Positions 7,884-57,149 of a stretch of DNA of 64,000 bases are shown here, in pieces. This DNA is from Zopfochytrium polystomum (Eukaryota > Chytridiomycota > Chytridiomycetes > Chytridiales > Chytridiaceae), in the NCBI GenBank assembly GCA_025765615.1, contig JAIVFJ010000092.1, forward strand, positions 186,001 to 250,000. The letters run 5' to 3'. Under the pieces are notes generated by a model, which ran no database searches, was not told the DNA's origin, and worked only from the letters and a program-made list of their open reading frames with translations. The position numbers and the translations under genes are program-made. Position 1 is the stretch's first letter, and each line of letters begins with the position of its first letter.

Positions 7884-9317
7884 TCAGAGGAAATGAGCTT
7901 GTATGTCAATGTGTTTTGTGCGAGCATGTGTGAGAGGGTTGAGCACTAGTGCGATTGCAAATTGATTTTCCTCGAAGATTGGTAGTGGCCGCTGTGCGGG
8001 GAGTTGCAACTCTGATAATACAGCTAGGAGCCATTGTGCTTCTTGGAAGGCTTCAGAAAGTGAGAAGTATTCTGCTTCCATGGAGGATAGCGATACTTGA
8101 TGTTGTTTGCGTGAGACCCAAGAGACAGTGGTGCCCAAGAGGAAGAAGACATATCCAGTGCGCAATGTGCAGTCTCCAGGTTCACCCCCATAGGATGCAT
8201 CAGCGTATGCAGCTGGTTCAAGGGAGTTGTTTGTGAAGAGCTGTAGCAGCTTGTGGCTTTGCCTGTAGAATATTCTGTAGTCCCAGGTGCCTCGGAGGTA
8301 ACGAAGCAGGCGGGAGAGTGCATTGTGATGGCACTGGCGTGGCTTCAGTTGGAACTGGGAGAGTACATTTGTTGCAAATGCGATATCTGGTCGAGTTTGT
8401 GTTGCAAGATATTGAAATTTCATGAGTGTGGATTGATACCAGCTTGAGTCGCTCTTGCTGAGTTCGACTGATGTTTTGTCATGCATAAAGGTGATAGACA
8501 TTGGAGTTGATGCAATATCAAGGTCGTCCCACATTTTCTCTTCAGTGAGAATTGTCCTGGTGTATTCATCTAGGCCCCATCCAAATGCCTTCAGCATTGC
8601 ACCTGAGGTGGATGTGAATCACTTGGCTGACAGTGGTTTCCTCGAGGGACATGCTCTACTCAGCGCGAAAAGCATCCTCAATTTTTGCAACAAGAGCTGG
8701 GGTGTTGGCCATGACATTGATGTCAACAAAGACAAAGCCGAAGGAGAGCAGGTGGCCGTTGTCGAGAAGCAATACGTGGACGGGGATGACTGGCCACTCA
8801 ACGACGGGACAAGATGATTTCAAACGTTTGCTGCTGAGGGTCTACTTGATAGAAGAGGCAGGCTCAGCACGGGATTGATTGAAGCCAAGTTTCTCGACAA
8901 TGAACTTGTGAAGGGTCAGGAACCAGTCCCAGATTGATGGAGTCCATAGAGGCTCTTGAGGAGTTTGCAGAATAGTTTCTTTCCATCTGGAGTGAATCGC
9001 TTGTGGCCTTTTGGTGGATGCATGTAGATGACTTCTTTGAGGAAAGTGTACAGGGTAGGCTGTGTTGACATCCATGCTGTGGTACTCGAGGTCAAAAGCA
9101 AGTCTGATTGCAATGAGCGGTTGGATGGCCTGGATCCGGACGACAGGAGAAAAGGTGTCTGTGTAGTCGATGCCTTTGCGTTGGGTGTTTCCACATGCGA
9201 CAAGACGGGCTTTCCATTGCTTCAGCCACCTAAAGGGGTCAACCTTGTAGGCATAAACCCATTTGCAGAACATTGCGCGTTTGCCAGGGGGAATGTCAAA
9301 AAATGAGCCACTTGGTC
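7884..9317 (-). pseudogene. Copia pol remnant: reverse transcriptase and RNase H
   Basis: The RNase H half (7884-8597) shows the copia signatures YADASYGG, VSLSSMEAEY and ARTKHIDI in one frame, ending at a stop close to the expected end of pol. The RT half (8619-9293) is broken. KARLVACGNTQRKGIDYTDTF and MDVNTAY are in one frame, YMHPPKGH and KSLYGLHQSG are in another, and the YVDD-like region is reached only after a further shift. The frame continues across the DDE insertion into the N-terminal RT part at 12254 onward. It is inactive. Confidence 0.88.
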
Positions 9318-10585: not shown

Positions 10586-11147
10586 CGCGCTGCAGTTTGA
10601 CTTTCAATCCCTATTTATTATGGTGATCACGCCATCCTGTCCAACAAGTGGGCTGGGTGGCAAAAAAGCCCACACCCCAAACAACGGAAGGACGAGCCAA
10701 AGCCCCCAAAACAGGCACTCCAATAAACTAGCACGCGCTCCACATAACTTGCACGCGCTCCAAAATCTTTTGTGCAGCACCACACCGAAATTGCACCATC
10801 TCACGAGCAAAACGCAAAAACACAAGCTCATTTGGCGCATCTGCTGTCATTTTCAATTGACCAGGCGTATATCAAAATGGAGCGCGTGCACTTTTCTTAG
10901 GGCGCGTGCATTTTTTTTGGGGCGCGTGCGTTTATTTTGGAGCGTGTGTACATTTTTTGGGGCGTGTGCCATCGATTTGGTCCATGGACCTGCCCCAATT
11001 CAATTCGGCCGTCTTCTTTGCAAAAGAGGGAAGCTTTTTGATGTTTTGATGTTTTGATGTTTGGAGTCTGTCTGACGTAGTGTGTAAGTAAACCATATGT
11101 AAACGCACAAATGCAAATGGCACCCACCTCGCCATTCATCAGCCACA

Positions 11148-12180
11148 ATGAACGAATGGCAATGGGAGGCCCTTTTCCGCCGAAGGTTCTCCAAATATGA
11201 CGATGGTTTGACGAGCACAGCACCCCCACAGCCCCAAAAAAAGCGATATCGAGCAGCAAATGACGAAGACTTCCGTGGATTTTTTGGTATCAGTCCCTGG
11301 GTCTGCCAGTCGCTGTGGGAACAAATTCAAGCTCGCCACTGCCAGTTCCTGAACCCGCAACCTCTGCACCTTCTTTGTGGCCTTTACCTTTTGAAAGTGT
11401 ACCCAACGCAAACCGTTGCAAGGAATGTACTTGGATGTAGTCACCAATCTTGGCAGACGTGGTCCGACCTTGGGCTGAAGTATCTCGCTTCAATTGTGGA
11501 GGTTAGAAACAATGCCGCCTTTATCTTTTCTAAAATTTTCAAGTTTTCTCTTGAGGATCGGTGGCAGAACTGGACATCAGATGCATTTTCGATGTATGTT
11601 GACGGAATTGACGTGCACGTGCCAGAACAGCAAAAGCGAAAGAAGTCTGACTACTCACACAAATTGAACCACGCTGGCATTCGCTTCCTCGTTGGGACGG
11701 CAATTGGATCAGTTAAGATTGTCTTTGTCAGCAACGGCTTTGCTTGTGGATCCCACCCCGATCTGCGAATCGCTCGTGAAGAACTTGTCCCACTCCTTGG
11801 CGCAGATGAGAAGGTTGTTGCAGACAAAGGGTTTCACGGTGAGCCAGCTTACAAGAGATCTTGTCAACCGGGCCATTCGGCGAATTGGAACGCGCCACGA
11901 AAACGTCAATGCTCTCTTGCACGAATTCCATTGCCTCACAACCATGCAGTTTCGCCACTGCCGGCCGCGCTTGAATGAGTTCTTCAGGATTATATGCTTC
12001 ATTGTGAACGTGAAGCTTCAGTACGAGCCACTCTACGACATTAGGGAGGCCCTCCTGGGACTGATTCAGCAGCGACTTGCGGCGGATATAGTGGGGGCCG
12101 GAGCAGGCAGCAGTGGCTCCGACACATCCGACACAGATGGTTCCCACGAGAGCAGGGGTATTACGTCAGACGTTGAATAA
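11148..12180 (+). pseudogene. DDE transposase (IS5/Harbinger-like), frameshifted
   Basis: The protein starts MNEWQWEALFRRRFSKYDDG. Catalytic-type blocks follow in order. The first Asp is in MYVDGIDVHVPE, the second is in GSHPDLRIAREE, then come VVADKGFHGE and the Glu-bearing RHENVNALLHEFHCL. The C-terminal block (FRHCRPRLNEFFRIICFIVNV) is also typical of DDE_Tnp_4/IS5-like transposases. The frame shifts by one base near 11855, between the GFHGEPAY and RDLVNRAI segments, so this copy is probably inactive unless the shift is a sequencing error. The copia-pol location and the 9-bp duplication define its element. Confidence 0.75.
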
Positions 12181-22175: not shown

Positions 22176-25100
22176 ATGGTGCGCATCTACCTGCGGTACG
22201 AGCCCGACACCGCGGCCGGCAGCGGGGTGTTTGGCGTGATTGCGTCGTACGCCGGGAACGTGGCGTACGACGCGACGGGGCGGTGCGCGGTCGTGCCCTG
22301 TCTGGAGGACGTGGCCGTGTGGGATTTGCGGCGGGGCGTGCTGGTGAGTTTTTCTTTATTCCCCGCTTTTGTTGTGTTGGGTGTTTAGGTGTGGGCTGTG
22401 TGTGTGCGTGTGTGTTTGCATGCGGTCACTGATTCCTGCGCAAAAAAAAGGTCACTAAATGGCACGACGCGGAGAATCGCGCAGAGGTGACGTGCATCGC
22501 GAGGTCGCCGAATAAGAGGGATTTTGCCGTCGGGTGCGTATTCTTTCTTTCCTCACTTTTTTCACTTTTGTAGTATTGTTGTTCTTCCTCGTTTCATTCT
22601 CTCATTCCCCAACTCTGTTTTCAATCCTCCAATTGAAAAAAAAAACCCCCCAACCACCACCCATTAGCTACTCCGACGGCTCGGTGCGGCTCTGGAACTA
22701 CGAGACGGGCGCGTCGACGACGACCTTTACGGGCCACAAGACGGCCGTGACGGCGCTCGCGTTCGACCGCGCAGGGTACCGCCTGGCGTCCGGCGCGCGC
22801 GACACGGACGTGGTCGTGTGGGACGTGCTGGCCGAGTCCGGATTGTTCCGGCTGCGCGGGCACAAGGACCAGGTGACGGCGCTGCGGTTCTTGGACACGG
22901 TCGTCCCGGCGGTGGTCGGCAGCGGGGAGGAGGAGGACGAAAATGACGAGGAGGAGGACGACGGCGGCGGCGACGAGGAAAAGGACGAAGAGAACCGGGG
23001 CCGGGAGAACGGCGATGGGCGCGGGGGCCGCCGGCGGACGCGACGTCGGCCGCTGGTGGTGGTGGTGGACCACCTGGTGTCGGCGTCCAAGGACACGACG
23101 GTGCGGTTCTGGGACCTGGCGACGCGGCACTGCGTCGAGACGGTGATTGCGCACCGCGGCGAGGTGTGTTCGCTGGAGGTGCTTGGGCGCGAGCCGGGCG
23201 TGGTGCGTAGCGGCGGCGGCGGCGCGCCGGCGGCGGAGCGGGCGGGCCGCGCGGCAACGTTGGTGACGGGCGGGTCGGAGGGTGAGCTGCGTGTGTGGCG
23301 GCTGGATTTGGAGCTGCTGGCGTCGAAGCTGGAGTCGGGGGACGGGTCGGTGCTGAGCGGGTGGAGCTCGGGGAAGGACGTGGACGCCAAGGCCGACGGT
23401 GCGGCGGCGGCGGCGGCGGGATCCGTTGTCCCGCTCCAGCCGCGCGCCATGACTTCGTACGGCGTGCTGGAGAGAGAGCGGACGGACCGGGTCATGCAGA
23501 TCAAGATCCACGAATCGGGCAAGCACATGGTCGTTCAGGTGAAGTGAGCCCCCCCCCCCTTTTTTTTTTGTTCTCATTCAAGTGTTTTAAACAACCAAAA
23601 ATTAACAACAACGACAAACAACAAACTCAATATAAAAACAAACAATAAAAATAATAATACAGGGCAACGACCGGCTGATCGAAGTGTACAAAATCCGCAC
23701 GCCAGAGGAGCTCCGCCGGCGGCTCGCGCGTCTGCGGAACCGGCGGAAGGAGGAGAAAAAAGGAGCAGGCGCCGACGGCTCGGCCGCGCCGGTCGTGCTA
23801 TCCGCGACCGACGAGTTCCCGCGCATCGGCTCGCACCGCTGTGTGACCAAGGTCCGGTCGATCGACCTGTCGCCGGACCTCGGCGGCGGCGCGTCGGACG
23901 CGTTCCAGATCCTTTGCGGGTTGACGTCGAACCAGCTCGAGGTGGCCACGGCCGGCAACAGCGGCAGCGGCGCCGTCGTCGCGGGAGGAGGAGCGGCGGC
24001 GGCGGCGGCGGCGGGGACCGAGGCGGTGGTCCGGCGCACAATGACGTTGGACTACCCCGGCCACCGGCACGACGTGCGCGCGCTCGCGCTCTCGTCCAAC
24101 GACGCGCTCCTCGCGTCCGGGTCGCACGACGCGCTCAAAGTGTGGAGCATGGCGTCGCGGCAGTGCGTGGCGAGCTTCGCGTCCGGGTACGTGCTGTGCG
24201 CGGCGTTTGTGCCGGGCAACAACCACGTCGTGGTCGGCACCAAGGAGGGCGACATTGAGATATTCGACCTGGCCAGCGCCGCGCGGATCGAGACCATCCG
24301 CGGCGCGCACGCCGGGCCCGTCTGGGCGCTGCAGGTTTGGCCCGACCGCAAGGGCGTCACCACCGGGTCGGCCGACCACGACGTCAAGTTTTGGGAGTTT
24401 GCGCTGCGCGAGGTCGCGGACGATGAGGACGGCGACGACGACAACGACGACGAGGGCAAGGGGAAAGGCGCGAGCAAGAAGAAGATCGTCGGCGACGACG
24501 GCGACGGCAACGACGAGGAGAACGACGAGGAGGAGGATGAAGAGGAGGAGCAAAAGCTCGGCAAGCGCGGGGGCGCGCAGCGGCGGGCGGCGACGTCGTC
24601 GTCGACGGCGGGCGGGGCCAAGTCGGCGCGCAAAGCCAGGTCCGCAGCGGCCAAGCGGCGGGTCCTGACGCTGAACCACACGCGCACGCTCAAGCTCGCC
24701 GACGACGTGCTGGCCGTCGCGCACAGCGCGGACTCGAAGCTTTTGGCCGTGTCCCTGCTGGACGCGACGGTCAAGGTGTTTTTCCTGGACACGCTGCAGT
24801 TTTCGCTGTCGCTGTACGGGCACAAGCTGCCGGCGCTGGCGGTCGACTTTTCGACGGACGGCGAGCTGATCGTGACGGCGTCGTCGGACAAGTCGATCAA
24901 GATTTGGGGCACCGAGTTTGGCGACTGCCACCGCAGCTTGCTCGCGCACGCCGACTCGGTCATGGCCGTGCGCTTTGTCGAGGACACGCACTTTTTCGTG
25001 TCGGCCGGCAAGGACGGCGTCGTGAAATACTGGGACGCTGACAAGGTGCTGAGTTTGATATTTCTTTTATTTTCTTTTATTTTCTTTTTTTTCCCTTTTT

Positions 25101-26261
25101 TTGTTCCTTTTTTTTTGTCGGTATGTGGTACTCACCCACACTCCCTCTCCTCGTTTCCCAGTTTGAGCAAATCCTCAAGCTCGAGGGCCATCACGGCGAG
25201 GTGTGGTCGCTCGCCATCGGAAAGCACGGCTCGTTCTTTGTCTCGGGCTCGCACGACCGGTCCATCCGCGTCTGGAGAAAGACGGACGAGCAGGTTTGTT
25301 GTTCAACTTTATTCGTGATGCCCAGGGGGGGGACTTTCCGCCTCCCTTTCGACTCGCCCGCATTCCCACACTCACCCCTTTCACCCTACCTCTTTACGCG
25401 CAGTTTGCCCTGGAAGAAGAAAAGGAGCGGGAGCTGGAGCAACTGTACGACCGCGCCGCGCTGGACGTCTACGACTCCAAATACAACCAGCCGATCGGGT
25501 CCGGCGTCGAGCCGGACCCGAACAAGCCGAACAGCGGCGCCCCCGGCGAGCCGTCCTCGACGACGGCGACGACGGTGCCGACGCTGTCGTCCATGCGGTC
25601 GCACGACCGCGTGCTGTCCGCGCTGTCCGTCTACGAGGAGGACAGCGAGGCGTACGAGCTCCTCCGGACGGGCGCGGACCCGACCGCGACGCGGTCGCCG
25701 TACGTGGTCGCGGCCAACCTATCCTCGCAGCCGCCCGAAGACTACGTCCTCCACGTGCTGTCGCAAGTGCCCGCGGCCGAGCTCGCGACGGCGGTCGCGC
25801 TGCTGCCCTTCGCGTCCGCCATGACGGTGCTCCGGATCGTGGCCGCGCACCTGGAGCGGACGGGCGCGCACGGGTTCCTCGCGGCGCGGGTGGTGCTCGA
25901 GGTCGTCGAGCAGCACCACAAGGCGGTCGTGGCGTCGCGCGCGAGCCGCGAGGTGCTGCAGCGCGTGCGGACGCTGCTGCAGGCGCGGCTGCGGGAGGAG
26001 CGCGAGCGCGTCGGGTTCAATTTGGCCGGGTTGAAGGTCATGAAGCGCGAGTGGGAGGCCGCGCACGCGATGCGGTTCTTCGACGACCAGGTCGCGGGCG
26101 TGCCGGCGCGCGTGGCGGGGTTGAGCGGGAGGGAGCAGGAGGCGCTGAAGAAGAAGGCGGCCGCGTATCGGCGTGCGGAGGCCGTCGGCCCGGGGGTCTT
26201 TGGCGGCAAGAAGAAGGGCGGCGGTGGCAAGCAGACGGCGGAGAAGCGGAAGCGGTCGTGA
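22176..26261 (+). CDS. DIP2: DIP2/UTP12 (WDR3) WD40 protein of the small-subunit processome
   Basis: It acts in the nucleolus as a subunit of the UtpB complex that helps assemble the U3-containing 90S pre-ribosome and process 18S rRNA. Six exons (22176-22343, 22451-22533, 22668-23538, 23663-25045, 25162-25293, 25404-26261) with GT-AG introns join in phase to 1,164 residues, near the usual size. The N-terminus [15 protein letters not shown] then FGVIAS is family-typical. WD40 units fill most of the protein ([54 protein letters not shown]). The C-terminal Utp12 domain, about residues 950-1110, includes [19 protein letters not shown] and [17 protein letters not shown], followed by a basic tail. 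Two acidic inserts (about 170-200 and 626-700) interrupt propeller loops. Codon use is strongly G/C-ending. Confidence 0.96.
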
Positions 26262-27391: not shown

Positions 27392-30300
27392 ATGATGAGC
27401 AAAGTGAATTCCTGGACTGTGGTTTTTGAGCTTGGTGATACTGGAAGGAAGATTGAAGTTCCTGCCAGCACCAGCTTTGACGACCTGCACCAGCTTGTGG
27501 CTTCACAATGGAATATCGCTGGTCCCATTGAATTGGTGTATGTGGACTCTGCAACTGGTGGTAAAATGATCCTCGATGTGAAAGATGACCTGGCAAGCCT
27601 GCTTTCTCAGCATTTCAAGTGGAAAGTAAGTTTGCTTCTCATCAGTTGTTCTGCTTTTTTCATTTCTTTCTGAAAAATTATTTTAAGGTGCTTGCTGTTC
27701 CTGTTTCGAACCTACCTGGCATGCCCCACACTGTTCCCACTGCATCTGGAGCAAGCACAACCACAGCTGCTGCTGGTGGTGGTAATGGCACTGTTCCAGT
27801 TGCTAGTGCTCCTGGAGTTACCCACACTACTCCCACTGCTCTGCCTACTGCTGCTGCTGCTGTTGGTGATGGCTTTGATGAGAGCCTTGTGCCGGACAAG
27901 GGTGAGTTGTGCAGTTCAGGAATGATCATCAGAGACTCACCCTTGTTGTTTCAAACTCTCCTTCAGACAAGTGGATGGGGTTGATTCCAAGAGATTGGGA
28001 GTGTGAGACTGGTGTTCAAAGGCATCCTTTCTTTATTAGGTCTGAGCATTGCATGTTTTTTTCCAACAGTCATCTGACCCCTCAAACAGCTACCGCCAGG
28101 CATCAGAAACAGTGTTTGCCAAGGACCTTTTCCATGAAATTGAGAAGGCCTTGTTGAAATCTTTCAGTGGCACTGCTCTTCCCAAAGAGACCAAAATGAG
28201 TGGTCTCCATGCTTTTCGGGATGCAAAGTGCCTTGCTTTTGGCCAGAAGTGGGACATCAACTTCATGTCGGGCTTGTATTACTCTTCAGTTATTATTCTG
28301 CTGTGTTCTGATTCGAGCATGAAGCGGATGCTTGAGGCTGACAAAAAGCTGGACGATTGCTTGTTGGAGGTGAGCTTGTTGATCTGATTTCTGATGTTGC
28401 TAAACGTGGCTGTTAGTGGGAACTTGCACTTCAGATGAAAGAAGAGAGAGGAGTTGACATCCTGCCAGTTCTTCTCTCGGAGCATGTGGCTGCAACTCTT
28501 GACGATGGGAGGAAGGAGTTGTTGGAGAACAAGTTCAGCACTTTTGATTACTCCAAGTTTCCAAAATCACTTCATGCTCATCCTCTGAGCCCTCGGCGCC
28601 ACACTGTATCTGAGACTGTCAAGATGGTGCTGGAGCTGAATGGCCCCTTTGCCCATAGAAAAAGCGATGATGTCCAGAAGTATGCACTTGCATTTTGTGT
28701 TTGTTGTGTTTCTTGAACCTTCCTCACACAACTTTAACTTTGGATGCACAACAGGGTTGTCACCGCTGCAAGGAATGTGTACAGTCGTAGGGAGGCTGAA
28801 AAGAAGACTCTCCATGCAAGTTCAGATATTTCACTCTCCAGATCCAGATTGAATGAATTGGAAACGTGGCTGACTCCCCTGTCTGACATGATGGATGATG
28901 AAAGGCAGGCCCTTCTGAAGAATGTGCTTTCTGGATCCAGGCAGTGGCTCCTCAACAGAGTGTTTCAGTTTCTGTCACCACACAAACCGCCAGCAGCCAG
29001 CACCAATAGGGTGATGTGGTTGAAGGGTGTGGCTGGAGTGGGCAAGTCTGTGATGGCTGCCATGGTCTCCAGAGAGCTGGAGGCTTTTGGAATGCTTGGT
29101 GGCATGTTCTTTTGCAAGCATGACGATGAACGTCGCAACAGTGATCGCAACCTGGTCCTGACCCTGGTTTTCAGTCTTGCAAAGTTCAGCTTTCAGTTTG
29201 GAGAAATTCTTCTTCAAGTCAAGCAAGACAATCCAGATCTTTTGTCCAGACCCGTGTTTGAGATGATGAAGGTGCTGCTTGTTCAGCCACTGCAGAGTGT
29301 TGTTGATGCCAAGCAGCTGGATGTGCCTGTTGTGCTTGTTGTGGATGCCCTGGACGAGTGTGGTGCTGTTGGCAAGAGGAGTGACATTCTGTCGGTGTTT
29401 CTGGAGCTGAACAGGCTGCTTCCTTCAAATGTGAAGATGCTGGTGACTGGACGCCCTGAAGAAGATATATCAAAGGCCTTTGAAGAGATTCCAGTCACTG
29501 AAATTGAGCCAACTGCCGAGGAGAACACTCAAGACCAGATTGAGTACACACAAGCTTTCCTCAAATCCTTGAATGCTGCGCAACCTGTGGTTGATGAGGG
29601 ATCGAAGCTTCTTGTTTCAAAGTCCTCTGGGATTTTTGTCTGGCTTGTGACTGCTTGCACCTACCTGAGGGACTCCCGCACTGAGGTCATCTCTCTTGAC
29701 ACGATCAACGCCCTGCCAGAGGGTGACAAGATGAATGGCCGCATTGATACAATGTATGACAGGATCTTTGCTGGCATTTTAGACTCAGCCAAGTTGAGCC
29801 AGTTGGAGTCTTTGCTTCACACGGTGCTGTCCATCATTGTCCTTTCCTATGAACCGCTCACTGCAGCAGCCATGGTGTCACTACTGGATGGGGAGAGCCC
29901 TGGAAACGTGAAGAGATGCATCCGAATGCTTGATCCTATCCTTGTGATTGATGGCTCCTCCAAGAAGATCAGGATTTTCCACAAGTCTGTGAAGGATTAC
30001 CTAACTGACCCAACGCGATGTGGGCTCTCTGTCAGGATTGAGTTGAGTGATGGTCATGCACGATTTGCAAAACTGTGCATCAGTGCACTGAACAAGAATC
30101 TAAAGTTCAACATGTGTGATCTGCCATTTGACAAATTTCACACTGAGATCCCTGATTTCAATGAAAAAGTCGCAAAAGGGATCCCAGAGCATGTCCAATA
30201 TGCGGTGAAGCACTTCTGGGAGCACTGCTTTGACGCCTCAAGGGAACGCTCCCCAAAGATGATTTCAGTGGAGAATCAGACAACCTCAAACAGTCTCTTG

Positions 30301-32595
30301 GCTGAGTTGCAAGATTTTCTTGAAAATCACGGACATCACTTCATGGAGGCCTGCAGCTTGTTGGACTCACTCAACCTGGTGATTCCTGCCATGACCAAAC
30401 TTCAGACTTTGTTCGATGGTTCTGCAATGAAAAACTTGGAAACGTTGCTGATAGACATGAAAAGAGTTTTGCAAAAGTTTCTCATTCCACTCAAGGCATC
30501 AGCCTTGCAGGTCTATTTCACTGCCATTCCTTTCTCTCCAAGTGGCTGTGAATTTCACAGGAAATTTGGAGGGATGTTGCCAGCGGATTTGCTGTGCCCA
30601 AGAGTTGTCAAGGGGCAGCCGACAGCTTGGTCTGCTTGCATGAATGTCCTTGAGGGACACACTGGTCCTGTCACCTCTGGAGCATTCAGTCCTGATGGGC
30701 AGTTTATTGTGTCTGGAAGTCAGGACGGTACAGTCAGGATTTGGGATGCAACCACTGGCCAGGAGATGCACAAGCTGGAAGGACACTCTCATAATGTCAA
30801 CTCATTCATTGTCGTCTCTGCAGCATTCAGTCCTGATGGGCAGTTTGTTGTGTCTGGAAGTTTTGGCAAGACAGTCAGGATTTGGAATGCATTCACTGGC
30901 CAGGAGATGCACAAGCTGGAGGGACACAATGATATAATCAACTCTGCAGCATTCAGCCCTGATGGGCAGTTTGTTGTGTCTGGAAGTCATGACAAGACAG
31001 TCAGGATTTGGAATGCATCCACTGGCCAGGAGATGCACAAGCTGGAGGGACACAACGAAGTGGTGAATTCTGCAGCATTCAGTCCTGATGGGCAGTTTGT
31101 TGTGTCTGGAAGTTGGGACAAGACAGTCAGGATTTGGAATGCATCCACTGGCCAGGAGATGCACAAGCTGGAGGGACACAATGGTTGGATCAACTCTGCA
31201 GCATTCAGTCCTGATGGGCAGTTTGTTGTGTCTGGAAGTGACGACGGGACAGTCAGGATTTGGAATGCATCCACTGGCGAGGAGATGCACAAGCTGGAAG
31301 GACACACTTATGAGGTCTTCTATGCAGCATTCAGTCCTGATGGGCAGTTTGTTGTGTCTGGAAGTGCTGACAAGACAGTCAGGATTTGGAATGCATCCAC
31401 TGGCCAGGAGATGCACAAGCTGGAGGGACACAACTGTATGGTCCACTCTGCAGCATTCAGTCCTGATGGGCAATTTGTTGTGTCTGGAAGTAAAGACGAT
31501 ACAGTCAGGATTTGGAATGCATCCAGTGGCCAGGAGGTGCACAAGCTGGAGGTACACAACGATGTGGTGAATTCTGCAGCATTCAGTCCTGATGGGCAGT
31601 TTGTTGTGTCTGGAAGTTGGGACAATACAGTCAGGATTTGGAATGCATCCACTGGCCAGGAGATGCACAAGCTGGAAGGACACACTTCTTGGGTCTCCCG
31701 CACAGCATTCAGTCCTGATGGGCAGTTTGTTGTGTCTGGAAGTGCTGACATGACAGTCAGGATTTGGAATGCAACCACTGGCCAGGAGATGAACAATCTG
31801 GTGGGACACAACAATGAGGTGAGGTCTGCAGCATTCAGTCCTGATGGACAGTTTGTTGTGTCTGGAAGTGGCGACAATACAGTCAGGATTTGGAATACAT
31901 CCACTGGCCAGGAGATGCACAAGCTGGAAGGACACACTTCTTGGGTCTTCTGCACAGCATTCAGTCCTGATGGGCAATTTGTTGTGTCTGGAAGTGGCGA
32001 CAAGACAGTCAGAATTTGGAATGCATCCACTGGCCAGGAGATGCACAAGTTGGTGGGACACACCAACTCAGTCCTCTCTGCATCATTCAGTCCTGATGGG
32101 CAATTTGTTGTGTCTGGATGTCGAGACAAGACAGTCTGGATTTGGAAGGCATCCACTGACAGAGCTGATTTAAGCTGGTCTAAGAAGGCAACCAAGGCCC
32201 ACTGGCAGTTGATGCACAAGATTGATGGTTTCTCTTTCACAGTATCTAATGGTTTCAGTGCTGATGGGCAGTCTGTTGTTTTGAGGGACAAGGTTGGAAC
32301 AGCAATTTGGATCGAAATTGCAACTGCTCTCCAATTACAAGAGAATGCTGGTCTTTCTGGAACTGTTTCTTGCAACCAGCAATCGAGTTTTTGTGTTCGT
32401 GATGTGTCAGGGAAGAAACTGCAGGATGGTAAAACTACCTCTGTGTCTATTATGAACAATGGTGTTTGGTTCTCTCCCACCAGCACCAAAGTCCTTTGCT
32501 GGCTTCCTCCTGAATTTCGAGGTGACCAGCAACTCCTCAGCAAACATTCAATTCTTCTCCTTGGTAGTGGCATTTCTACTGTGATTCAGTTTTGA
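27392..32595 (+). CDS. PB1-like/TIR/NACHT/WD40 NLR-type receptor, 1,634 aa
   Basis: Six exons (27392-27625, 27688-27901, 27967-28039, 28090-28369, 28417-28679, 28755-32595) with GT-AG introns of 46-75 nt join without phase conflict. Residues 1-95 form a PB1/ubiquitin-like fold (ELVYVDSATGGK, DVKDDLASLL). A Thr/Ala/Val-rich linker follows. Residues about 168-305 are a TIR domain: HPFFISYRQASE, FRDAKCLAFGQKWDINF, IILLCSD, and LLEWELALQ with Glu267/Glu269 as candidate NADase residues, then ILPVLLSE. The NACHT ATPase has Walker A GVAGVGKS (446-453) and Walker B VLVVDALDECG (548-558). An alpha-helical arm follows, then twelve WD40 repeats (984-1490), one decayed repeat and a unique tail ending STVIQF. 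This is a STAND receptor plan: repeats sense a ligand, NACHT oligomerises, TIR signals or depletes NAD. That function is inferred. Codon use is AT-tolerant, unlike DIP2. Confidence 0.85.
30640..32160 (+). repeat. Twelve near-identical 126-bp WD40 repeats
   Basis: Each 42-codon unit reads roughly HKLEGH-x3-V-x2-AAFSPDGQFVVSGS-x-D-x-TVRIWNASTGQEM. The framework is almost invariant at DNA level. Changes cluster in the residues after GH and on either side of the Asp after SGS. The first unit (GPVTSGAF) and second unit (longer loop) are slightly different. A thirteenth, degraded unit follows. Confidence 0.95.
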
Positions 32596-42901: not shown

Positions 42902-44845
42902 TTAAACCCTAAGATGATCCACCAACTCCTTGTAAACCACATTTCTAATAGTTGGTCCACCTTTTTCTTGATTGTGTTTTGCAGTTATTATAAGATCTGC
43001 TGGGGATGTCACTCTTGAAAAAGCAACATAGGACTGTCCAAGTGCAAACACATCCTCCCACATATCCAGTCCAACCTTTTTCAAAGTCTGGCCTTGGGAC
43101 TTGTTGATGGACATTGCAAACGCAGGTCTAACAGGAAATTGCTTTCTGGTGAACTCAAAGGGAAATCCTGAATCACTGGGTTGCAGAGAGATTCTGGGAA
43201 GGAGGACTTTCTCTCCTTTCCTGCTGCCCACAACAACTTCACAGAGCAGCACATTGGGGCAGACCTCACATAGGATGAGGCGTGTCCCATTGCAGAGTCC
43301 ATCTGTCAGGTTGCGAAGGAGGATGAGAGGCATTCCCACTTTGACAATTAGCCTGTGGGGAGGCAGGCTGGAAGGGCTAAGGGTCTTGAGGAACTCGGGG
43401 CTAATGAGAAGGCTGTTGCCTTCGTTGTCTCCAACTGGGGAGTCAGCAGAAAGTAGCTCCTGGGTATCTCCTGGAAGCTGCTGCACAGCATACTCATTGA
43501 ACAGATGAACCACATCATTCCTTGCAGCCAAAATACACCTGTCTGCGAGGTAGGATGCAAAAGCTTCCCCTGGCTGCTGAACTGCTGCACCAAAATCATC
43601 ATAGACTGCCTCAAACAGTTGCCTCACGCGAGGACTGCCATCTTTTGCAGGAAAGGTGAGGGTGCTGATGTAGTCTGGGACAATGACATGATTGGATGCT
43701 CCATTTGGAGTGTCAAACTGCTGCAGGCCACCCCTGCCAAGGCAACCCAACCATCCAGCAAAGTCAACGGCATTCTGATTTGCTGTTCCCTGCGCAAGCC
43801 TCATGTTGGTTCTCAGCTCAAGCATCCTGACATGCCTCCAAAGGTTTGAGAACTTGCAGGAAGCCTTCAGGATCATGGTCTTTGTGGCGTTGGACACAAC
43901 AGGTGCAGTCTGCTTAAAGTCGCCCCCAAGAAGCACTACTTTCCTCCAAATGGGGTTTCAGCCATCTGAGGATCCGAGGGCCTGACAACATCCCGCAGGA
44001 CTCTGTCAATTACATCCAGAGCCAAGGAGTTGAGCATGGATATCTCATCCAATGCAATGAGATCAGCCAAGTACAGCTCCAGTGCACAGTCAGTGGACAT
44101 TTTGATGCCAGACTGAGAGTCAGCATCGAGCTCTATGGGGATGGCAAATCGAGAGTGGGCAGTTGTCCCGCCAGCCAGCAGCAGCACAGCTATTCCTGAA
44201 GAAGCTACAGCATGGGCAATCCTGCCCTGACCAAAGCGGCCTTGACTGCTGCGGACTTTTGCCAAGATGGCATTGTAGACAAAGGTCTTGCCGCATCCTC
44301 CCACTCCCTGAAGATAAAAGATTCGACCTTCTGGGGGAGGCAACACTCCAGGTTGTCCACATTGCTCAACAGCATCCACCACTGCCCTGTAAGCAAAGGC
44401 CTGCTCCTGGTTGAAGCTCCTTTCAGCATTTGCCACAACGGCCTCCAGCTGCTGCTGGTTGTAGTCCGAGTTTAGCCTTTGAAAAATCAGCTCGAGCCGG
44501 CCTTCCAGCGCCAGCACAGGCTCAGGCTGGAACTCTTCCAGCTGTGGCAGGGTGGGGAAGTTGCACAGTGAGGTTGACAAACTCTGCAGGGACGCGTCCA
44601 GCAGCCTCAACACAGTGCAGTACATGTGGTCTGTAGGGGCAAGATCCAGATTCCCATGCTCCAGCTGAGCTGTGCGAAGCTGGTCAGCGACCATCTCATT
44701 CCTGAAATCATTGTAGAGAGCCCTTGGATCTGCTGGAGCATTGAAAGCGAGGAGCAGTGCAAACAGCCTGATAAACTCTCTTGAGCTTGTCATCACGCAC
44801 ACGCCCTGCTGCAAGCACCGAACTGCCTCACGATCATCAGCAGTC
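42902..44845 (-). pseudogene. Helitron Pif1-like helicase part
   Basis: The order of motifs matches SF1B helicases. Walker A is GVGGCGKT (about 44283-44306), then AVASSGIAVLLLAGG, Walker B ALDEISML, GGDFKQTAPVV, and near the end AFAMSINKSQGQT and SYVAFSRVTSPADL. The frame ends VVYKELVDHLRV. Two single-base losses break it, at about 44847 (the junction with the Rep part) and about 43936 (between PFGGK and the next segment). Confidence 0.9.
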
Positions 44846-45904
44846 AACCACGTCGCACACAGGCCTCCTGAAACGTTCCAAAGGTGGTTCCTTCCACAGT
44901 CCAGAGCTGCTCAAAAGATGTAGGGCCTCGGACGTTGGCCAGAAGAACGCGGAGGAAATATCTCTCAGAGTCCCAAGGGCTTGCCGCATACATCCTACCA
45001 ATTGTTGCTGCAGCCTGCTGCCTCTGACGCTTTGCCCACCTCGCCTGCCTCTGGTTCCACGTGTAGTGCTCAGGAACTTCAAAGTACAACAGCCTCCTTG
45101 CATTTTCATCACGCTCGTTCAGTCTGAAGAAAGCAAGAAGCTTGGAGTCCCTCTGAAGGGCAGCGACTTCCTCAAGGTCAGCATCCTCGTCAAAGTACAC
45201 TGGCTGCTGGTCAGGGAGATGCACAGCCAATCTTGTGACTGACGGTATCTGGCCTTGCATGTGGAACTGGAAGATCCTCCAGCAGGCCTCCTGAGCAGAC
45301 ACGTAGCGGGCATCAAGGAACTCATTGATCTCATCCAAGCAGACAGCCACCTCTCCAGAGCTCACGGTCACCCTTGCCATGTCATGGCCCTTGTGCAAGT
45401 ATTTCATGAGGTACTTGATGGCCCTCATGGTGGCGCAAATCTCCACATTGATGTGCGCCTGGTACTTTTTGGACAGATACCGGTTGAATGCAACCACCCA
45501 ATGGTTGTCCACTTCAAAGCCACGTGGGAGGGTGAAATGCCGTCCATTATTTCTGCGACGGTACTTGATGCCACCTTCAGGAGACACCTCTGTCTGATTG
45601 ACCCACGGCTTGGGAAACCCTTTTGTGCACTTGGTGGTGCCAGCAGGTTTGCAACGGTCAGAGCAAGAGTGAATCATGGTCTCCTTGATAATCCTGTAAA
45701 GCTCTGGATCCTCCTGAGGGTCAGGCAGCTCTGCACTCACAAATCGATCATAGTCGTCTGGGGTCTGGGGTGTGTCACTGGGGTCCAGCCAGGAGGCGAT
45801 ATGGGCATGGGGCAAGCCATGCTTTTGAAACTCCACCACCCAAACCACTGCAACCTGCTTGCCAAAGCAGATTTTCAAATCCTCCAGCAGGCTCTTTAGC
45901 TTCA
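44846..45904 (-). pseudogene. Helitron Rep (HUH) part
   Basis: Contains the HUH-type motif KHGLPHAHI (45798-45824) and the downstream two-Tyr motif KYLMKYLHKG (about 45385-45416). These are the catalytic centres for rolling-circle nicking in Helitrons. It also carries HSCSDRCKPAGTTKCTKGFPK. Its upstream continuation is cut off at 45905 by the 2.1-kb insertion. Confidence 0.9.
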
Positions 45905-46905
45905 TGTGAGACTGTGCTCTCTAACTCCTCACCTAGGGCTATAGGTGGAAACTAGAGCATGGACCTAAATACCAATCCTGACTAATGAAAAGGGGCAAAA
46001 GGTGGGTGTCTAGGGGCACTAGACAGGAAAGTGTATTTGGAGTCTTAAAAAGCCCAAGAAAAACACAAATAAATCTCTAACACAAAAGAGGGGTTTCTCA
46101 CACCAAAGCATGAAACAGACACAATCACAAAAGAAAGCATAATCCTCTGGTGCAAGACACAGAAGGGTTTCATCTGGGGCACAAGGCCAAAGCCAAGTTA
46201 GACCAGAGACAGAACCGACTGGATCGGTAAGACTGACTGAATCGGTAAGGGGAGTGACAAGCCACTACAACCCATCAAAAGAAACAACAAAAGAAATAAA
46301 CAACAAGTCAAACCCTGAGTTGGAGGGGGTTGGAGAGACAAAGGGCAGACACAAGGAACAGTTTGTGTGCAGAGGTGCCTGTTGAACCAAATCAGAACTG
46401 TTTTCCACTTAACAGAACGAGACACAACTTGTCTCACTCCAAGGAGAGTGTTCCAACTCAATCCAAGGAAGAGGGTGCAACCAGGGTGGGAGACAGTGGG
46501 ACTCTTCTTGTTTCATCCTACCAGGAGACAGACCTCTGCCTCGCCAAGCCAGAGAGAATAACCTGTCTTAGAAGCAAGGAAGGTCAATACCCACTCCCAC
46601 ACACAAGGAAGACACCAAAGACAACCACAGGTATTAGCATGAAAGGAAGAGGGTCTGAACCCAGTGAACCAGGCCCACCAAAGGCCAAAGAAACCATCAC
46701 CAGGGACAGGGAGGAATACCAGAGAGACCATACCACCACATAATACCTGACCAGCCAACTCATTCATATCACCTTGAGAGACCTGGATTTGAAGCGATGT
46801 ATTGACAGGAACCAGCGAGGCACTACCACAGTTTTACCCTCCCACCATCCATCATCAAGTAGCTCCTACCCCAGACCAGCCTAAACAGTATGTGCAGAGT
46901 GGTGA

Positions 46906-49890: not shown

Positions 49891-52393
49891 TTTTTTTTTT
49901 TTTATTTTTTTTTATTGTTCCAGCCCCAGAGGGGCTGGCGGGAAGAGAAAGAGCCATCAACGGTGAACCGTAATGGACTACGTCCAGGTATCACCTCAGC
50001 AAACCCACCCCATGCGCTACGGACTTACAGGGTCGTCAGGCATCTCCACCGCACATAAAGCCACAATGATCAAAGGAGAAGGGGAAAACACAGAATCAAG
50101 AAAATAGAGAAGTGAGTCTGAAGGATGTCAGTGTAAGAGAGGGGAGCATCTGTGAAAGATCGGAGGGTTGGGATAAGTCAGATTAGGCCGCAGCCCGTGT
50201 CAAGATTGAGAAGGGCAACAGTGGCTCAGTGAACGTCAGGGGGCTCAGCAGGAGATGGGTGACGAGTGGCTCTTGCTTGTTGGCGTGAGGGGAGTTGCAT
50301 TGTGTGGTGAAGCCAGATAATGCCTGCAACAAGTTTTATGCGGCCGAGGTAGTGGTCAATCCATCTGGAGGAAGCCTTGGTGCGCAAAAGCCAGATGCCT
50401 GGGCAAGTGTCAGTGGAGTGCCGGCGACTACACGTGGTGCAGTGAGGTTGAGAGGGTTGTGAGGAGCTGTTACGAGTTCTGTGGGATGATGGAGTGGGAG
50501 GGAGGGAAGAGTTGATGTTTGGAGAAGACAGTGGGTGAGAGGCTGTGGAACGAGGGTGAGAGGCCTGGGAATTTGGTGGAGGGGATCTGCGGGGCTTGGA
50601 GCGCTTGTCAGAGGGCTTGATGGACTTTGATTTCTCCCAAGAGATAGTGTCGTCACAGCGGGGGATCCAAATAAGTCGATGGGCGTCAAGAAGGAGCTGA
50701 TGGAAAGCGGTGACAAGGGTTTTAAGGACAGAGGCAGCAGGGTTATCACGTGAGAATAAGGTGTCATAAAAGGATTGAGGGATGAAGCCACGAAGGAGGG
50801 AGGAAAAATTGATACAAGATTGATCATCAAAGAGAAATTCAGGGCGGGAGAGCCAGTAAATGGGATGGGCTTGGGGAGGAGAGCGACCATGAGGTGCAGG
50901 AGGAACAGAGGAGGAAAGAGTTTCAGCAAAGGTGTTGCGAATCATGGCAATGGCGTCAGCAGCTGCAGGGCATTGCCAGACATGCTCTGTGGTTTCCAGA
51001 GCGTGGTGGCATCGACGGCAGAGCCCATCAGGGTAGACTTGAGGGTGTCGTTGGTGTAGAACTTTTTGGGTGGGCAAAGTGTTGCTGAGGATTTGAAGTC
51101 GATACTTGCGACGAGCAGAGCCAGGGAGGGTGCCAAAGAGGGAAGAGGGTTTAATTCCAGAGTGGAGAACAAGAAATGTGGCTTCCCAATGAACTAGGTC
51201 AGGGTTGTGGGTGATGTGGGCAAAGGCTGAGGTGTTCAGAAGTGCAAAATGGTGAGAGAGACCTGTGAGGAGTCGCAGTTGTCGTCGAAGTTGGCCCAAG
51301 ATGGGGGTATTTGAGATGAAGGCAGTGGCTGGGAGGATCTGTTGTGAGAGGATTGGTAACAAAGTTGGGTCGGAAGTCAAGGGTACAGATGATGCCAGCT
51401 TGTCTGCTCGTTCGTTGCCAGCGTCGCCGTTGTGTCCACGAACCCAGGAAACTTGTGGAGGGGGGCCAATCCAAGACTGTAGAGTGGCTGCAACACATGC
51501 CCAAAGGGTGGGGTGGGAAGTGGTGTGCAAAAGACGATGGAGGGAATCAGAGAGAGGAGGTGTGTTGAGCTCGCTGTGTGGATGGGGACTAAAGGAGTTT
51601 GAGGGAAAGAGTTTCTCAAAGGTGTGAACCACTCCAAGATTGTCAAGTCGAAAAGTGAGGGGCAGGGAAAGCTTTGCAGTGATGGTGAGGGCAGCAAGGA
51701 GAGCAGCAATTTCAGCAGTTGTGGAAGAGGCAGAGAGTGGGGGGAGGGCAAAAGAAAATTCAAAGTTAAGCTCAAGGCAAACAACAGAGCCAGCCATGAA
51801 GCCCTCCTCGCGAAGGGAGCCATCGGTGTCAAAGGTCAAGGATGGGTGAGTATGGGCAAGGTCAGCAGGGAGAAGGGGCACGTCCATTGGTTGATAGCAG
51901 GGATTTGTGAAGGGAGCTGGATTGAAAGTGGAGTGGCGGGAGGTGAGGAGTGGGAAAGGTGTGGGTGTGAAAACGGTGGTGGGGGAAGGTGAGTTAACAA
52001 AGAAGATGGGCTGGGAGGGTCGAGTTGCAGTAGCAGTTGTGCGGCTGCTGATGGGGACTGTGTAGGTGGAGTGTGCAAGGGAAGTTGGATTGTAGGGAGA
52101 GATGTGCTTGCTGCAGGGGTAAGAGAATGGGGGGGAGCCAATGGGGCAGCCAAGGCATTGAACCAAGTGGAAATTGTGGGAGGAAGGGTGAAGGCGTTCA
52201 GGGAGCCTGGAGTAGTGATGAGAAAGGAGTTGGGGGTTTGGGAGTGTGTGAGTCCAGTTAACAATGCGGAAGAATTCCACTTGTGGTGGGGTCATCAGAC
52301 GGAAAAAACTGCCACGAGCAAGGGGGGGATGGTGAAGGGGATCCAAAGAAGATGGGTAAAAGGGATTGTAAAGAGGACCATCAGGAGGGCTGT
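49891..52393 (-). mobile_element. 5'-truncated LINE with 17-bp target duplication
   Basis: A non-LTR element on the minus strand with its A-rich tail at the left end (T-runs from 49891). The 17-bp direct repeat TTCGCTCTGGTGGTCAA flanks it (49874-49890 and 52394-52410). It encodes only the C-terminal part of ORF2, so it is truncated at its 5' end. Without it the Helitron zinc-knuckle frame is continuous. Confidence 0.95.
50226..52346 (-). CDS. LINE ORF2 C-terminal part with RNase H, about 706 aa
   Basis: After a Pro/Ser/Thr-rich segment, an RNase HI domain is complete by motif: FDTDGSL (Asp), AEIAALLAAL (Glu), RLDNLGVV (Asp) and RGHNGDAGNERADKLA (His/Asp). A Cys/His box typical of LINE C-termini follows (CRRCHHALETTEHVWQC), then a Ser/Pro-rich tail with THCTTC-like cysteines. 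The reverse transcriptase and endonuclease are absent because of 5' truncation, and no ATG is expected. The frame itself is intact, which suggests a recent insertion. Confidence 0.88.
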   Translation of the reverse strand: MDPLHHPPLARGSFFRLMTPPQVEFFRIVNWTHTLPNPQLLSHHYSRLPERLHPSSHNFHLVQCLGCPIGSPPFSYPCSKHISPYNPTSLAHSTYTVPISSRTTATATRPSQPIFFVNSPSPTTVFTPTPFPLLTSRHSTFNPAPFTNPCYQPMDVPLLPADLAHTHPSLTFDTDGSLREEGFMAGSVVCLELNFEFSFALPPLSASSTTAEIAALLAALTITAKLSLPLTFRLDNLGVVHTFEKLFPSNSFSPHPHSELNTPPLSDSLHRLLHTTSHPTLWACVAATLQSWIGPPPQVSWVRGHNGDAGNERADKLASSVPLTSDPTLLPILSQQILPATAFISNTPILGQLRRQLRLLTGLSHHFALLNTSAFAHITHNPDLVHWEATFLVLHSGIKPSSLFGTLPGSARRKYRLQILSNTLPTQKVLHQRHPQVYPDGLCRRCHHALETTEHVWQCPAAADAIAMIRNTFAETLSSSVPPAPHGRSPPQAHPIYWLSRPEFLFDDQSCINFSSLLRGFIPQSFYDTLFSRDNPAASVLKTLVTAFHQLLLDAHRLIWIPRCDDTISWEKSKSIKPSDKRSKPRRSPPPNSQASHPRSTASHPLSSPNINSSLPPTPSSHRTRNSSSQPSQPHCTTCSRRHSTDTCPGIWLLRTKASSRWIDHYLGRIKLVAGIIWLHHTMQLPSRQQARATRHPSPAEPPDVH

Positions 52394-52410
52394 TTCGCTC
52401 TGGTGGTCAA

Positions 52411-54096: not shown

Positions 54097-54363
54097 AACT
54101 GTTTACACATGTGATAAAGCCTGTTGGTCAAGTCAAGTGGATGTGGCTGTGGGCGGTTGGGTTTGGTGCATTCTCGATTGCTTGTGTTTCCATGCACAAG
54201 TTCCCAGCTGGTGACCTTCCAATCCCTTCATGGTCTGCTCACTTCTCTCATTACCCCCCCTTGTCACTGGCAACAACAACTAGTGATTGCAGCAGTCTAT
54301 CAAGATTCTCCGCCTGAGTGGCTTCACACCATCCAAGTCCACAAGGTGGAATAAGATGCACAG

Positions 54364-54434
54364 GGGGCTTCCGGGACTTGAACCCGGGACCTCCTCCACC
54401 CTAAGAAGGAATCATACCCCTAGACCAAAGCCCC
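54364..54434 (-). tRNA. tRNA-Pro (AGG)
   Basis: 71 nt. Acceptor GGGGCTT/AAGCCCC pairs fully. The anticodon loop is TTAGGGT and the T-arm is CCCGGGTTCAAGTCCCGG. Confidence 0.93.
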
Positions 54435-54566
54435 ATGCTTTTTTCAGAAGTGCCTCAACCTCTCCGCTGCAACCTAGAAACTGGGTACTTGACTGTCAAT
54501 TAAGGCTGACACCATACCCACAGGCCATGAAAAGTCTACGATCTGCCCATTGCAGACGGACTGACA

Positions 54567-54639
54567 CGAGCGTGCCAGGGGTCGAACATGGAATCTCTTG
54601 ATTCGTAGTCAAGCGCGCTAACCATTTTGCCACACGCCC
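54567..54639 (-). tRNA. tRNA-Arg (ACG)
   Basis: 73 nt. Acceptor GGGCGTG/CACGCTC. Anticodon arm CTTGA-CTACGAA-TCAAG. The T-stem has one mismatch, so it may be slightly decayed. Confidence 0.88.
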
Positions 54640-55173
54640 ACATTAGTGCCTTTGGCTCGTATGATTGCATCACTATCTTAGGACTTCCAAACCCTATCAA
54701 CCTCTCAGCAATAAAATGCAATCACAGTTACCCCAATCCCATTCCCAAGATCTTCCGCAGTATAAAATACAGAGCCCCTGCTGCATCAGGGCCAGAGAAG
54801 CATAATCCAAGATCCTGATCAAGGGGGAATATCTGCATCCTCTTTAAAACACAGGCACATACAGATGAGGCAGATATGAGCTTGTTTTTTTTTTTTTTTT
54901 TTTTTTTTTGCTCAGATATGGGAGGATTCCCAGGCAAAATGGATATCCAGTACGTATGTTTTATTGCTGCACGCGTGGCATACAAGCTAACTTTGGCCAG
55001 GCCTCCCACATCTGCAAGGGCAGCTGCATTCTGGTGCTTTGGGGCTAACTGCACCCAACTAGCTGCATCCAAAAAGAGCAGATCTAACCTGCCACCCACA
55101 CAACTTTGATGCGCAACTAAGGCAATAACTGCAACAGAGGAGCCGAGCAAGGCTGGTTGCGCAACACTCTGTC

Positions 55174-55255
55174 CGACAACGGCAGGACTCGAACCTGCGC
55201 ACGGAAACCGTAACAGATTTCTAGTCTGTCGCCTTAACCGCTCGGCCACGTTGTC
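55174..55255 (-). tRNA. tRNA-Ser (AGA)
   Basis: 82 nt with a class II variable arm. Acceptor GACAACG/CGTTGTC. Anticodon loop CTAGAAA. T-arm GCAGGTTCGAGTCCTGC. Confidence 0.95.
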
Positions 55256-56204
55256 TGTGCCTCCTGGCCAATAGGCCACTTTCAATTGGTACTTACCAGT
55301 GCCCACTTGCAGGCAGCTCCAAACCTGGATGTGCAGCAGCAGCCTGATATTGCACTGATCCACAGACAACTTCAGTCCCTGGCTTTGGCTTGCCAATGGC
55401 CCAACACAAAATTTAAATCATCCAAAAAGGTGATTCTCCTGGTTTGTTTTCATGAAAAGAAATGGTGCCAAGTTGGAAAGCAGCCAGCTTGCCTAAGTGT
55501 GCTTGTGCTTTTTGTCAGTTTGGGAATTTTTAAGTGGCAGAGGAGAAAGGGGCGTCCAAAAATTTGAGCTCATAGAGAGCAGTCCCTGTCAGCTCAAGGA
55601 GGATTTCTGTTGCTGCATCACTGCTGCTTTGCCATTGCAGTTGCCACAACACTATTGCATCCTGCTTGATTGCCGCCCGCACACAGTGCTGCTTCCTCAC
55701 AGCCCAGCTGTCAATGCCCCACACTTTGTCCTCGACCTGTTCTCCAGAGGGATTGTCCTGGAGCGCCACGCTCCATGGTCTGCCAGGAGAAGTAGGAGAT
55801 TCTCACACCTATGCCAGAGAGTGCATGCAACAGGTCCAGATGAGACTGATTCAGAGGTGGCTTTACATTTCCTGCTTCTAAAGCAGGCACCTGAGTAAGG
55901 ATCCATGGGGCGTGCCTGGTGAAATACTGCAGAGGTGGGTTGATTGTGGGATGGACAGGGTCTGAAACCTTGCACCCAACAATCACTTTTCCTGTTTGTT
56001 CATTCACGTCAACTGGCTTGCGTGATGGAGTATTCAATTTCTAACAAAATCAGATCCTAGGAAAAAAGCACAGAAACAATTTGAAGTGACTTAGCAGAAA
56101 AAAAGGCAGCCAGTGGCAGTCAAGTGAAAGCCAAGCCAGTCCAGGACTGGAGTCTGAGCCTGGAAGTGGAAGCTCCTGTCCAGCAAGTGAAGTCCAACTG
56201 ATGG
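55256..56204. other. Spacer in the tRNA-rich stretch
   Basis: No gene or repeat was recognised. The short frames have no domain. Confidence 0.45.
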
Positions 56205-56276
56205 CTCCCAGACGGGGAATCGAACCCCGATCGCCGCCGTGAAAGGGCGGAATCTTGACCGTTAGACGATCTGGGA
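56205..56276 (-). tRNA. tRNA-Glu (TTC)
   Basis: 72 nt. Acceptor TCCCAGA/TCTGGGA, anticodon loop CTTTCAC, T-arm CGGGGTTCGATTCCCCG. Confidence 0.95.
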
Positions 56277-56409
56277 ATAGCAAAAGCTAACAAAACTTGC
56301 ATGCTGATTGCGTGGCATGAGGAGAATCCTCCAGCCATGTTCCACTAAAACAAGTGAGAAAACTGGTAGGCACACAGACAACACATGCAGTGCACCCACT
56401 TGTTTGAGG

Positions 56410-56524
56410 GCTCTGGTGGCTTAGTTGGTTAAAGCGTCGGTCTCATACATGACACACCTGGTTGCACAGGTGCTCCTCCACACAGTCATCCGAAGGTCGT
56501 GAGTTTCGACTCTCACCCAGAGCA
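56410..56524 (+). tRNA. tRNA-Met elongator (CAT) with 40-nt intron
   Basis: Exons 56410-56447 and 56488-56524. The intron (56448-56487) interrupts after position 37, the canonical site. Acceptor GCTCTGG/CCAGAGC. The anticodon loop is CTCATA plus A. The T-loop appears to have eight bases (TTTCGACT) instead of seven. Confidence 0.9.
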
Positions 56525-57065: not shown

Positions 57066-57149
57066 GCGCTGGTAGTTTAGTGGTAAAATAGACGCCTTCC
57101 ACCCGTAGGGAGATAGCATCAGCCCCGGGTTCAATTCCCGGTCAGCGCA
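57066..57149 (+). tRNA. tRNA-Gly (TCC) with 13-nt intron
   Basis: Acceptor GCGCTGG/TCAGCGC, D-arm TAGTTTAGTGGTAAAA, T-arm CCGGGTTCAATTCCCGG. A 13-nt intron (57102-57114) after position 37 restores the anticodon arm, with one mismatch left in the stem. Confidence 0.85.

Follow-up and report, generated by a model that had tools for sequence, protein, structure and literature searches.

A six-exon gene of the chytrid Zopfochytrium polystomum encodes a PB1-type head, TIR, NACHT and WD40 protein of a large receptor-like family

A gene of the chytrid fungus Zopfochytrium polystomum, a species placed in Chytridiales by the NCBI taxonomy, encodes a protein that joins a PB1-type head, a linker, a TIR domain, a NACHT-type switch (NPHP3_N) and a series of WD40 repeats, in this order. 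The gene lies on the forward strand at 27392-32595 of the window, the stretch of 64,000 nucleotides of contig JAIVFJ010000092.1 that was analysed and to which all coordinates refer. An earlier note on this DNA had described a fungal intracellular non-self receptor (NLR) with a TIR effector; gene and architecture are real, confirmed, and better supported than that note could know. Gene anatomy, domains, their conservation, the size of the family and the site-specific variation of its WD40 repeats are established in what follows. We give a probability of about 0.68 to the reading that the protein is a tripartite receptor of the NLR type, whose TIR domain would cleave nicotinamide adenine dinucleotide (NAD+) or make a nucleotide signal on oligomerisation.

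The six exons join in phase into a single frame of 1634 residues whose sole stop is terminal, and all five introns have GT..AG borders, as the earlier note had read them. Exon 1 (27392..27625) encodes the PB1-type head (residues 1-78), with basic residues R19 and K20 and acidic residues D52, D62, D65 and D66. Exon 2 (27688..27901) encodes a linker rich in alanine, threonine and proline (residues 79-149 and part of codon 150), the conservation of which varies among paralogues. A DKWxxLIPxxW lead followed by the first TIR strand, HPFFI, makes up exon 3 (27967..28039), and the TIR core, from SYRQASE through E267 and including FRDAKCL with D218, W228 and LLCS, lies in exon 4 (28090..28369). The splice join between these two exons gives HPFFISYRQASE, which had been predicted to form TIR box 1; likewise, TIR box 2, FRDAKCLAFGQKW, starts at residue 216 of the spliced protein, and LLEWELAL supplies E267 and E269. 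Exon 5 (28417..28679) contributes WELALQM with E269, the remainder of the TIR domain and a conserved HxHxxSP block. The NACHT domain, a pre-repeat region, the WD40 array, a C-terminal tail and the stop all fall in exon 6 (28755..32595). A search of the spliced protein with Pfam hidden Markov models placed TIR_2, NACHT and NPHP3_N above their cut-offs and found WD40 in 12 stretches, as predicted; PB1, the remaining prediction, stayed below its cut-off in the head of this protein.

Because the five introns align, with GT..AG borders, in most of 20 paralogous loci (17, 17, 20, 20 and 18 of the 20 for introns 1 to 5), the gene model is more than a product of chance. On visual comparison, the gene models that are public for paralogues agree with it in part: in P0034 exons 1 to 5 are joined as in the window gene, and P0037 shares the join of exons 5 and 6. 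Three other models weigh against it, since P0035 apparently continues past the exon 4 donor, P0033 is without the exon 3 strand HPFFI and P0032 is without the head. Three public homology searches returned no protein identical to that of the window (best identities 37%, 60% and 65%), so no public protein of similar length was found for this gene; one of another length would escape these searches. Five further public proteins (P0002-P0006) start at or shortly before NACHT, and contigs C118, C11, C344, C19 and C60 have a TIR exon upstream of their NACHT match; with genes and proteins not paired one to one, public models of this type may omit the TIR.

The gene belongs to a large family. Genome-wide, the TIR exon has 127 matches (E up to 0.01) and the head 124, and 99 of the 124 merged TIR loci have a head 183-621 bases upstream. 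A search with NACHT, in which 150 of 220 candidates were scored, gave 150 matches (E up to 1e-5). Among the 144 merged NACHT loci listed, 90 lie behind head and TIR and 11 behind the window-type TIR alone; 26 follow another TIR_2 match, 7 follow a head only and 10 follow none of these. The number 26 was obtained with 28 of the 85 TIR_2 matches entered, and was the same with all 85 before pieces were merged. The counts are lower bounds for families so large, although allelic copies are counted in, as are the broken loci L029, L037 and L038. The earlier note had called TIR rare in fungal NLRs, which holds for fungi at large, where a 2023 review describes TIR NLRs as a small group (PMC10197012), but not for Z. 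polystomum, where TIR is the commonest partner of this NACHT. Moreover, 84 of 85 TIR_2 matches lie elsewhere than the window-type TIR exon, and the genome therefore holds TIR matches at about 200 places; some contain stops, and others may be fragments of a single gene.

Sixty-one loci were fetched from among the 127 matches, in a non-random choice: the window gene, the 20 best matches after it and 40 selected from the rest. Allelic duplication was considered as a source of the count and explains little among these loci, which form 53 clusters at 98% exon-4 identity; L031 and L032, alike over nearly their entire 10 kb, could be alleles. Some paralogues lack the TIR: in L079, L081 and L082 the NACHT follows the head, and nothing there truly matches the TIR exons. 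Part of exon 5 is still present in L080 and L084, and L083 (C15), one of the 7 head-only loci, has kept exons 3 and 5 together with a fragment of exon 4.

The WD40 array (30649..32175) is built of twelve repeats in tandem 126-base units, eleven of 42 codons and the second of 47. Variation was analysed in 42-codon repeats only (11 of the 12 in the window gene), and no repeats were drawn from L028, L029, L037 or L038; codons were numbered as in Podospora through conserved positions 8 and 26, an inferred match. Nonsynonymous change in the window gene peaks at repeat codons 25, 7, 9, 6 and 27, and the most variable codons across 17 genes and 146 repeats are 7, 25, 6, 9, 5 and 27. L032, nearly a duplicate of L031, is counted among the 17 genes and was removed from the 16-gene analyses of repeat exchange and of the proportions of nonsynonymous (pN) and synonymous (pS) differences. 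In all 16 of these genes pN at codons 7, 9, 25 and 27 exceeds the gene-wide pS, and over the remaining 36 codons (5 and 6 counted apart) it is 0.21-0.54 of pS. Position 8 is valine in 137 of the 146 repeats and position 26 is aspartate in every one, though the repeat pattern accepted no residue but D, G or N there.

The same codons 7, 9, 25 and 27, flanking conserved positions 8 and 26, were reported to be under positive selection in HET-D and HET-E of Podospora (PMC1805685). A random draw would place these four named sites within the top five with a probability of 4.5e-5, a figure to be read with the reservation that WD40 geometry is not random and that no non-receptor WD40 family stands beside it as a control. 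That variable sites are shared suggests that fungi very distant from each other use a single design of recognition. Two points weigh against so simple a reading: WD40 surfaces may vary at codons 7, 9, 25 and 27 for structural reasons, and the repeat pattern itself imposed fixed residues on part of the framework, so that low variation at positions 1, 13, 22, 23, 26, 28 and 32, where it demands set residues, is partly constructional. Framework differences per 108 bases amount to 14.5 within genes and 15.6 between genes, and the nearest repeat lies in the same gene with a frequency of 0.13, against a shuffled mean of 0.07 and a highest value of 0.15 in 200 shuffles. Such similarity is compatible with a pool of repeats shared across genes, and is not proof of exchange.

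What the receptor would recognise may be asked at this point. Its cue could be other strains of the same species, as in incompatibility, rather than viruses or microbes, an alternative that is compatible with the receptor reading and draws on the resemblance of the WD40 variation to that of HET-D and HET-E (PMC1805685). We consider it rather unlikely, although worth keeping in mind: the size of the family favours a repertoire of wider scope, allorecognition is held not to be the role of most fungal NLRs (PMC12881547), and the genus Zopfochytrium is listed with a double-stranded RNA (dsRNA) mycovirus (PMC10224137), itself a possible cue.

The TIR domain scores 31.0 bits for TIR_2 in the N-terminal 355 residues and 33.3 bits as a separate piece (Pfam cut-off 28). 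TIR domains are switches or enzymes that are also employed in plant and animal immunity. The join of exons 4 and 5 reads LLEWE in 56 of 61 loci; among the five that do not (L030, L061, L066, L070 and L075) only L075 differs genuinely, the others being incomplete or misjoined. Five sequences with an incomplete or misplaced join (L030, L061, L066, L070 and L072, the last with a missing AG and a stop) were left out of the alignment of these exons, and L048, which has a stop, was retained with an X. In the 56 aligned copies D218 and W228 are invariant, E267 and E269 are each conserved in 55 and S174 in 54. We take S174, D218 and E267 to be the serine of TIR box 1, the aspartate of box 2 and the glutamate of helix C, respectively. 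The ratio of nonsynonymous to synonymous substitution rates (dN/dS) in exon 4 has a median of 0.23 and exceeds 1 in none of 161 pairs (dS 0.05-0.8); by this measure exon 4 is under purifying selection.

Comparison with solved structures is less favourable to an enzymatic TIR. The best match of a TIR profile in the PDB is Cat1, with an E of only 0.15, in an alignment that pairs E267 with the glutamate of the Cat1 helix; the window's own TIR has no PDB match at E up to 10 with phmmer. The ordinary TIRs of the Z. polystomum genome match Cat1, TLRs, MyD88, RPS4 and AbTIR, and hhalign relates the window type to them with a probability of 88.6 and an E of 2.7e-6, with the glutamates one position off register by manual count. 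The model of a related TIR protein, P0032, in which helices and strands alternate, is modest (predicted local distance difference test, pLDDT, 62.7; predicted template modelling score, pTM, 0.66). By sequence, the domain is distant from solved TIRs, and its flavodoxin-like TIR fold is putative. E267 is a candidate catalytic residue, and the depletion of NAD proposed by the earlier note would be its putative consequence.

The TIR might instead be a scaffold that recruits a separate effector through TIR-TIR contacts, in the manner of MyD88-type adaptors, with its glutamates structural. Its distance in sequence from solved TIRs would fit such a role, as would TIR exons elsewhere in the genome that adjoin protein-kinase exons, possible partners; and conservation alone picks out no catalytic residue, W268 and E269 being conserved to the same degree as E267. 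The pairing of E267 with the Cat1 helix glutamate, at the E given above, points to an enzyme, and so does the union of sensor, switch and TIR in one chain, which is generally known from enzymatic TIR-NLRs. On balance we regard a scaffold as unlikely.

Other TIR open reading frames of the genome adjoin frames with further domains, namely Sel1 repeats (L001), protein kinase (L005) or both ankyrin and protein kinase (L003), and that of L008 adjoins a STAND-type nucleoside triphosphatase (NTPase) that scores below its cut-off. A bacterial or viral origin of the TIR was also considered. Scans with profile A1 and one short peptide pattern each confirmed no bacterial or viral relative of the window type; seven stretches in genome contigs and five in viral contigs came up, none of them confirmed, which is weak evidence of absence.

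The head had been proposed to be PB1-like, and this holds for the family while the window's own copy falls short. Against the PB1 model of Pfam (cut-off 23.6 bits) the window head scores 12.9-13.1 bits and that of P0034 19.1 bits, but the head of paralogue L031 passes with 27.6 bits. A profile of four heads finds the NBR1 chains 6tgs (E 2.3e-5) and 6tgn (E 6.8e-5), both of which we take to be PB1 domains. The predicted structure of the head follows the order strand-strand-helix-strand-strand-helix (pLDDT 76.8). Among 24 heads (23 from the 26 loci searched, and that of the window gene) R19, D52, D62 and D65 are invariant, position 20 is always K or R, and D66 is present in 21; these residues presumably form the basic and acidic faces of a PB1 domain.

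The switch is matched by NPHP3_N, a NACHT-type NTPase family, at 28933..29454 (residues 415-588; 85.9 bits, cut-off 24.8) and by NACHT itself (28.3 bits, cut-off 26.7). Its Walker A motif, GVAGVGKS (29026..29049, from residue 446), and Walker B motif, VVLVVDALDE (29329..29358, from residue 547), bear out the earlier note. NB-ARC remains under its cut-off (11.9 against 23.5 bits), and no LRR occurs among the 25 of 77 Pfam families shown for the protein, the repeats being WD40. Plant TIR-NB-LRR receptors likewise carry a TIR effector on an NLR switch. The window protein differs from them in having NACHT/NPHP3_N in place of NB-ARC, WD40 in place of LRR, and an added PB1-type head.

For relatives of the NACHT domain, scoring covered the 7996 candidates with the most shared words, and the best 11 of the 30 listed are all proteins of named chytrids: six of Z. 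polystomum (33-60% identity), and one of Entophlyctis, two of Nowakowskiella and two of Cladochytrium (33-38%). One protein at 28% follows, and then mostly NACHT proteins of Dikarya at 23-27%. Within Z. polystomum, P0001 (DFJ73DRAFT_375406) shares a FISYR-type TIR followed by NPHP3_N, with 37% identity over 75% of residues 150-420; it differs in that WD40 is absent from its 11 Pfam families and that TIR_2 matches in two stretches, the better of them near the C-terminus. Proteins of Cladochytrium replicatum (P0010), Entophlyctis (P0007) and Nowakowskiella (P0008 and P0009) align with the TIR or part of it and have NPHP3_N and WD40, at 33-38% over NACHT. P0010 combines TIR, NACHT and WD40, with TIR_2 at 51.9 bits, and in P0007 part of a TIR precedes NACHT and WD40. 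Unlike the window family, these four have no PB1 among the 25 families shown for each (of 52-56), the heads of P0007 and P0010 not having been scanned apart; the first 89 residues of P0008 score 18.7 bits for PB1, below the cut-off. P0009 (Nowakowskiella JEL0407) has a long N-terminus before its TIR, with repeated stretches that look PB1-like by eye, three pieces of which have no Pfam match.

Among known systems, the HNWD proteins of Podospora anserina (HET-E, HET-D and HET-R) are alike in their N-terminal effector, NACHT, C-terminal, closely similar WD40 repeats and multigene organisation, as well as in the concentration of repeat variation at codons 7, 9, 25 and 27 (PMC1805685). The window family differs in its TIR_2 in place of HET, its added PB1-type head and its occurrence in a chytrid, and with 90 head, TIR and NACHT loci it has about nine times the number of the 10 NACHT/WD members described in Podospora (PMC1805685). 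No HET domain was detected: at E up to 1 the N-terminal 355 residues match only TIR_2 and, weakly, PB1, and the TIR piece matches only TIR_2. An N-terminal effector of TIR or TIR-like type is also present in NLRs noted earlier in Chytridiomycota (TIR) and in Pezizomycotina (TIR-like, or SEFIR-like; PMC9815663). In the available text of that paper, PB1 does not occur and the chytrid TIR-NLRs are given no family size or repeat analysis, so that whether they are the same family cannot be told from it.

The receptor reading may be put as a mechanism. The WD40 propeller, made of closely similar repeats that differ mainly at few codons, would bind a variable cue, and binding would open the NACHT ATPase and lead to oligomerisation. 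The PB1 head, with its basic and acidic faces both conserved, could link one subunit to the next, or to partner proteins, in a front-to-back manner. The clustered TIRs would then cleave NAD+ or produce a nucleotide signal by means of E267, an output that would kill the affected cell or arrest it. Cue, oligomerisation, enzymatic output and cell death are what we infer, and it weighs against the proposal that activity, expression and ligand of the receptor are likewise presumed. A wider scheme, which we offer as doubtful, would have some ninety PB1-TIR-NACHT-WD40 sensors, whose propellers are hypervariable, assembled through PB1 into signalosomes of mixed composition, with TIR-less paralogues (such as L079, L081 and L082) as helpers or brakes, and an NAD+-derived output read by other TIR proteins, some of them beside kinases; the HET receptors of Dikarya would be a second build, with a TIR-related effector.

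A further point against the receptor reading is that some copies are broken: in L029, L037 and L038 the NACHT is split into several frames and is likely decaying. Such copies would suit a gene-like repeat that spreads with little function, most of its copies decaying after dispersal, as would the roughly 90-100 dispersed copies, the limits of homology in 16 loci (which begins at most 0.77 kb before the ATG and mostly stops within 0.34 kb downstream, with short extra pieces in five), open frames below 900 residues in 26 of the 90 head, TIR and NACHT loci, and the transposon-type open reading frames in the window. This alternative is very improbable in view of the purifying selection on exon 4, the open frames of at least 900 residues in the other 64 loci, the splice sites retained in paralogues, the pattern of change in the WD40 repeats and the similar architecture in other chytrids.

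Elsewhere in the window, the upstream neighbour (22516-25315) is a WDR3-type WD40 gene, in which the models of the first and second WDR3 propellers score above their cut-offs. Transposon-type open reading frames lie at 8845-9315, 11103-11975, 42905-45920, 50229-52406 and 58034-60433, and include RVT_2, DDE endonuclease, PIF1/Helitron, RNase H and gag-integrase-chromo kinds. Eight transfer RNA genes of seven kinds (two for Gly) fall inside 9 kb at 54363-63304.

A survey published in 2014 found no NLRs in chytrids (Dyrka 2014; PMC4986451), and TIR was later reported in NLRs of Chytridiomycota (Wojciechowski 2022; PMC9815663). A TIR effector on an NLR of fungi is therefore of a known kind; the PB1 head, the size of the family and the WD40 pattern were not found reported. 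In the open-licence PMC literature, searched by titles and the beginnings of abstracts, supplements aside, no description of the PB1-TIR-NACHT-WD40 architecture or of its expansion came up among the papers listed. Strain WB228 of Z. polystomum has been the subject of a dsRNA screen and of total RNA sequencing (PMC7482067), and such RNA data might serve to check the splice junctions. With about ninety TIR receptors in a chytrid, an early-diverging lineage of fungi would possess a large TIR-NLR system, and the family would offer a setting in which the proposed kinship of HET and TIR and the NADase status of fungal TIRs could be tested.

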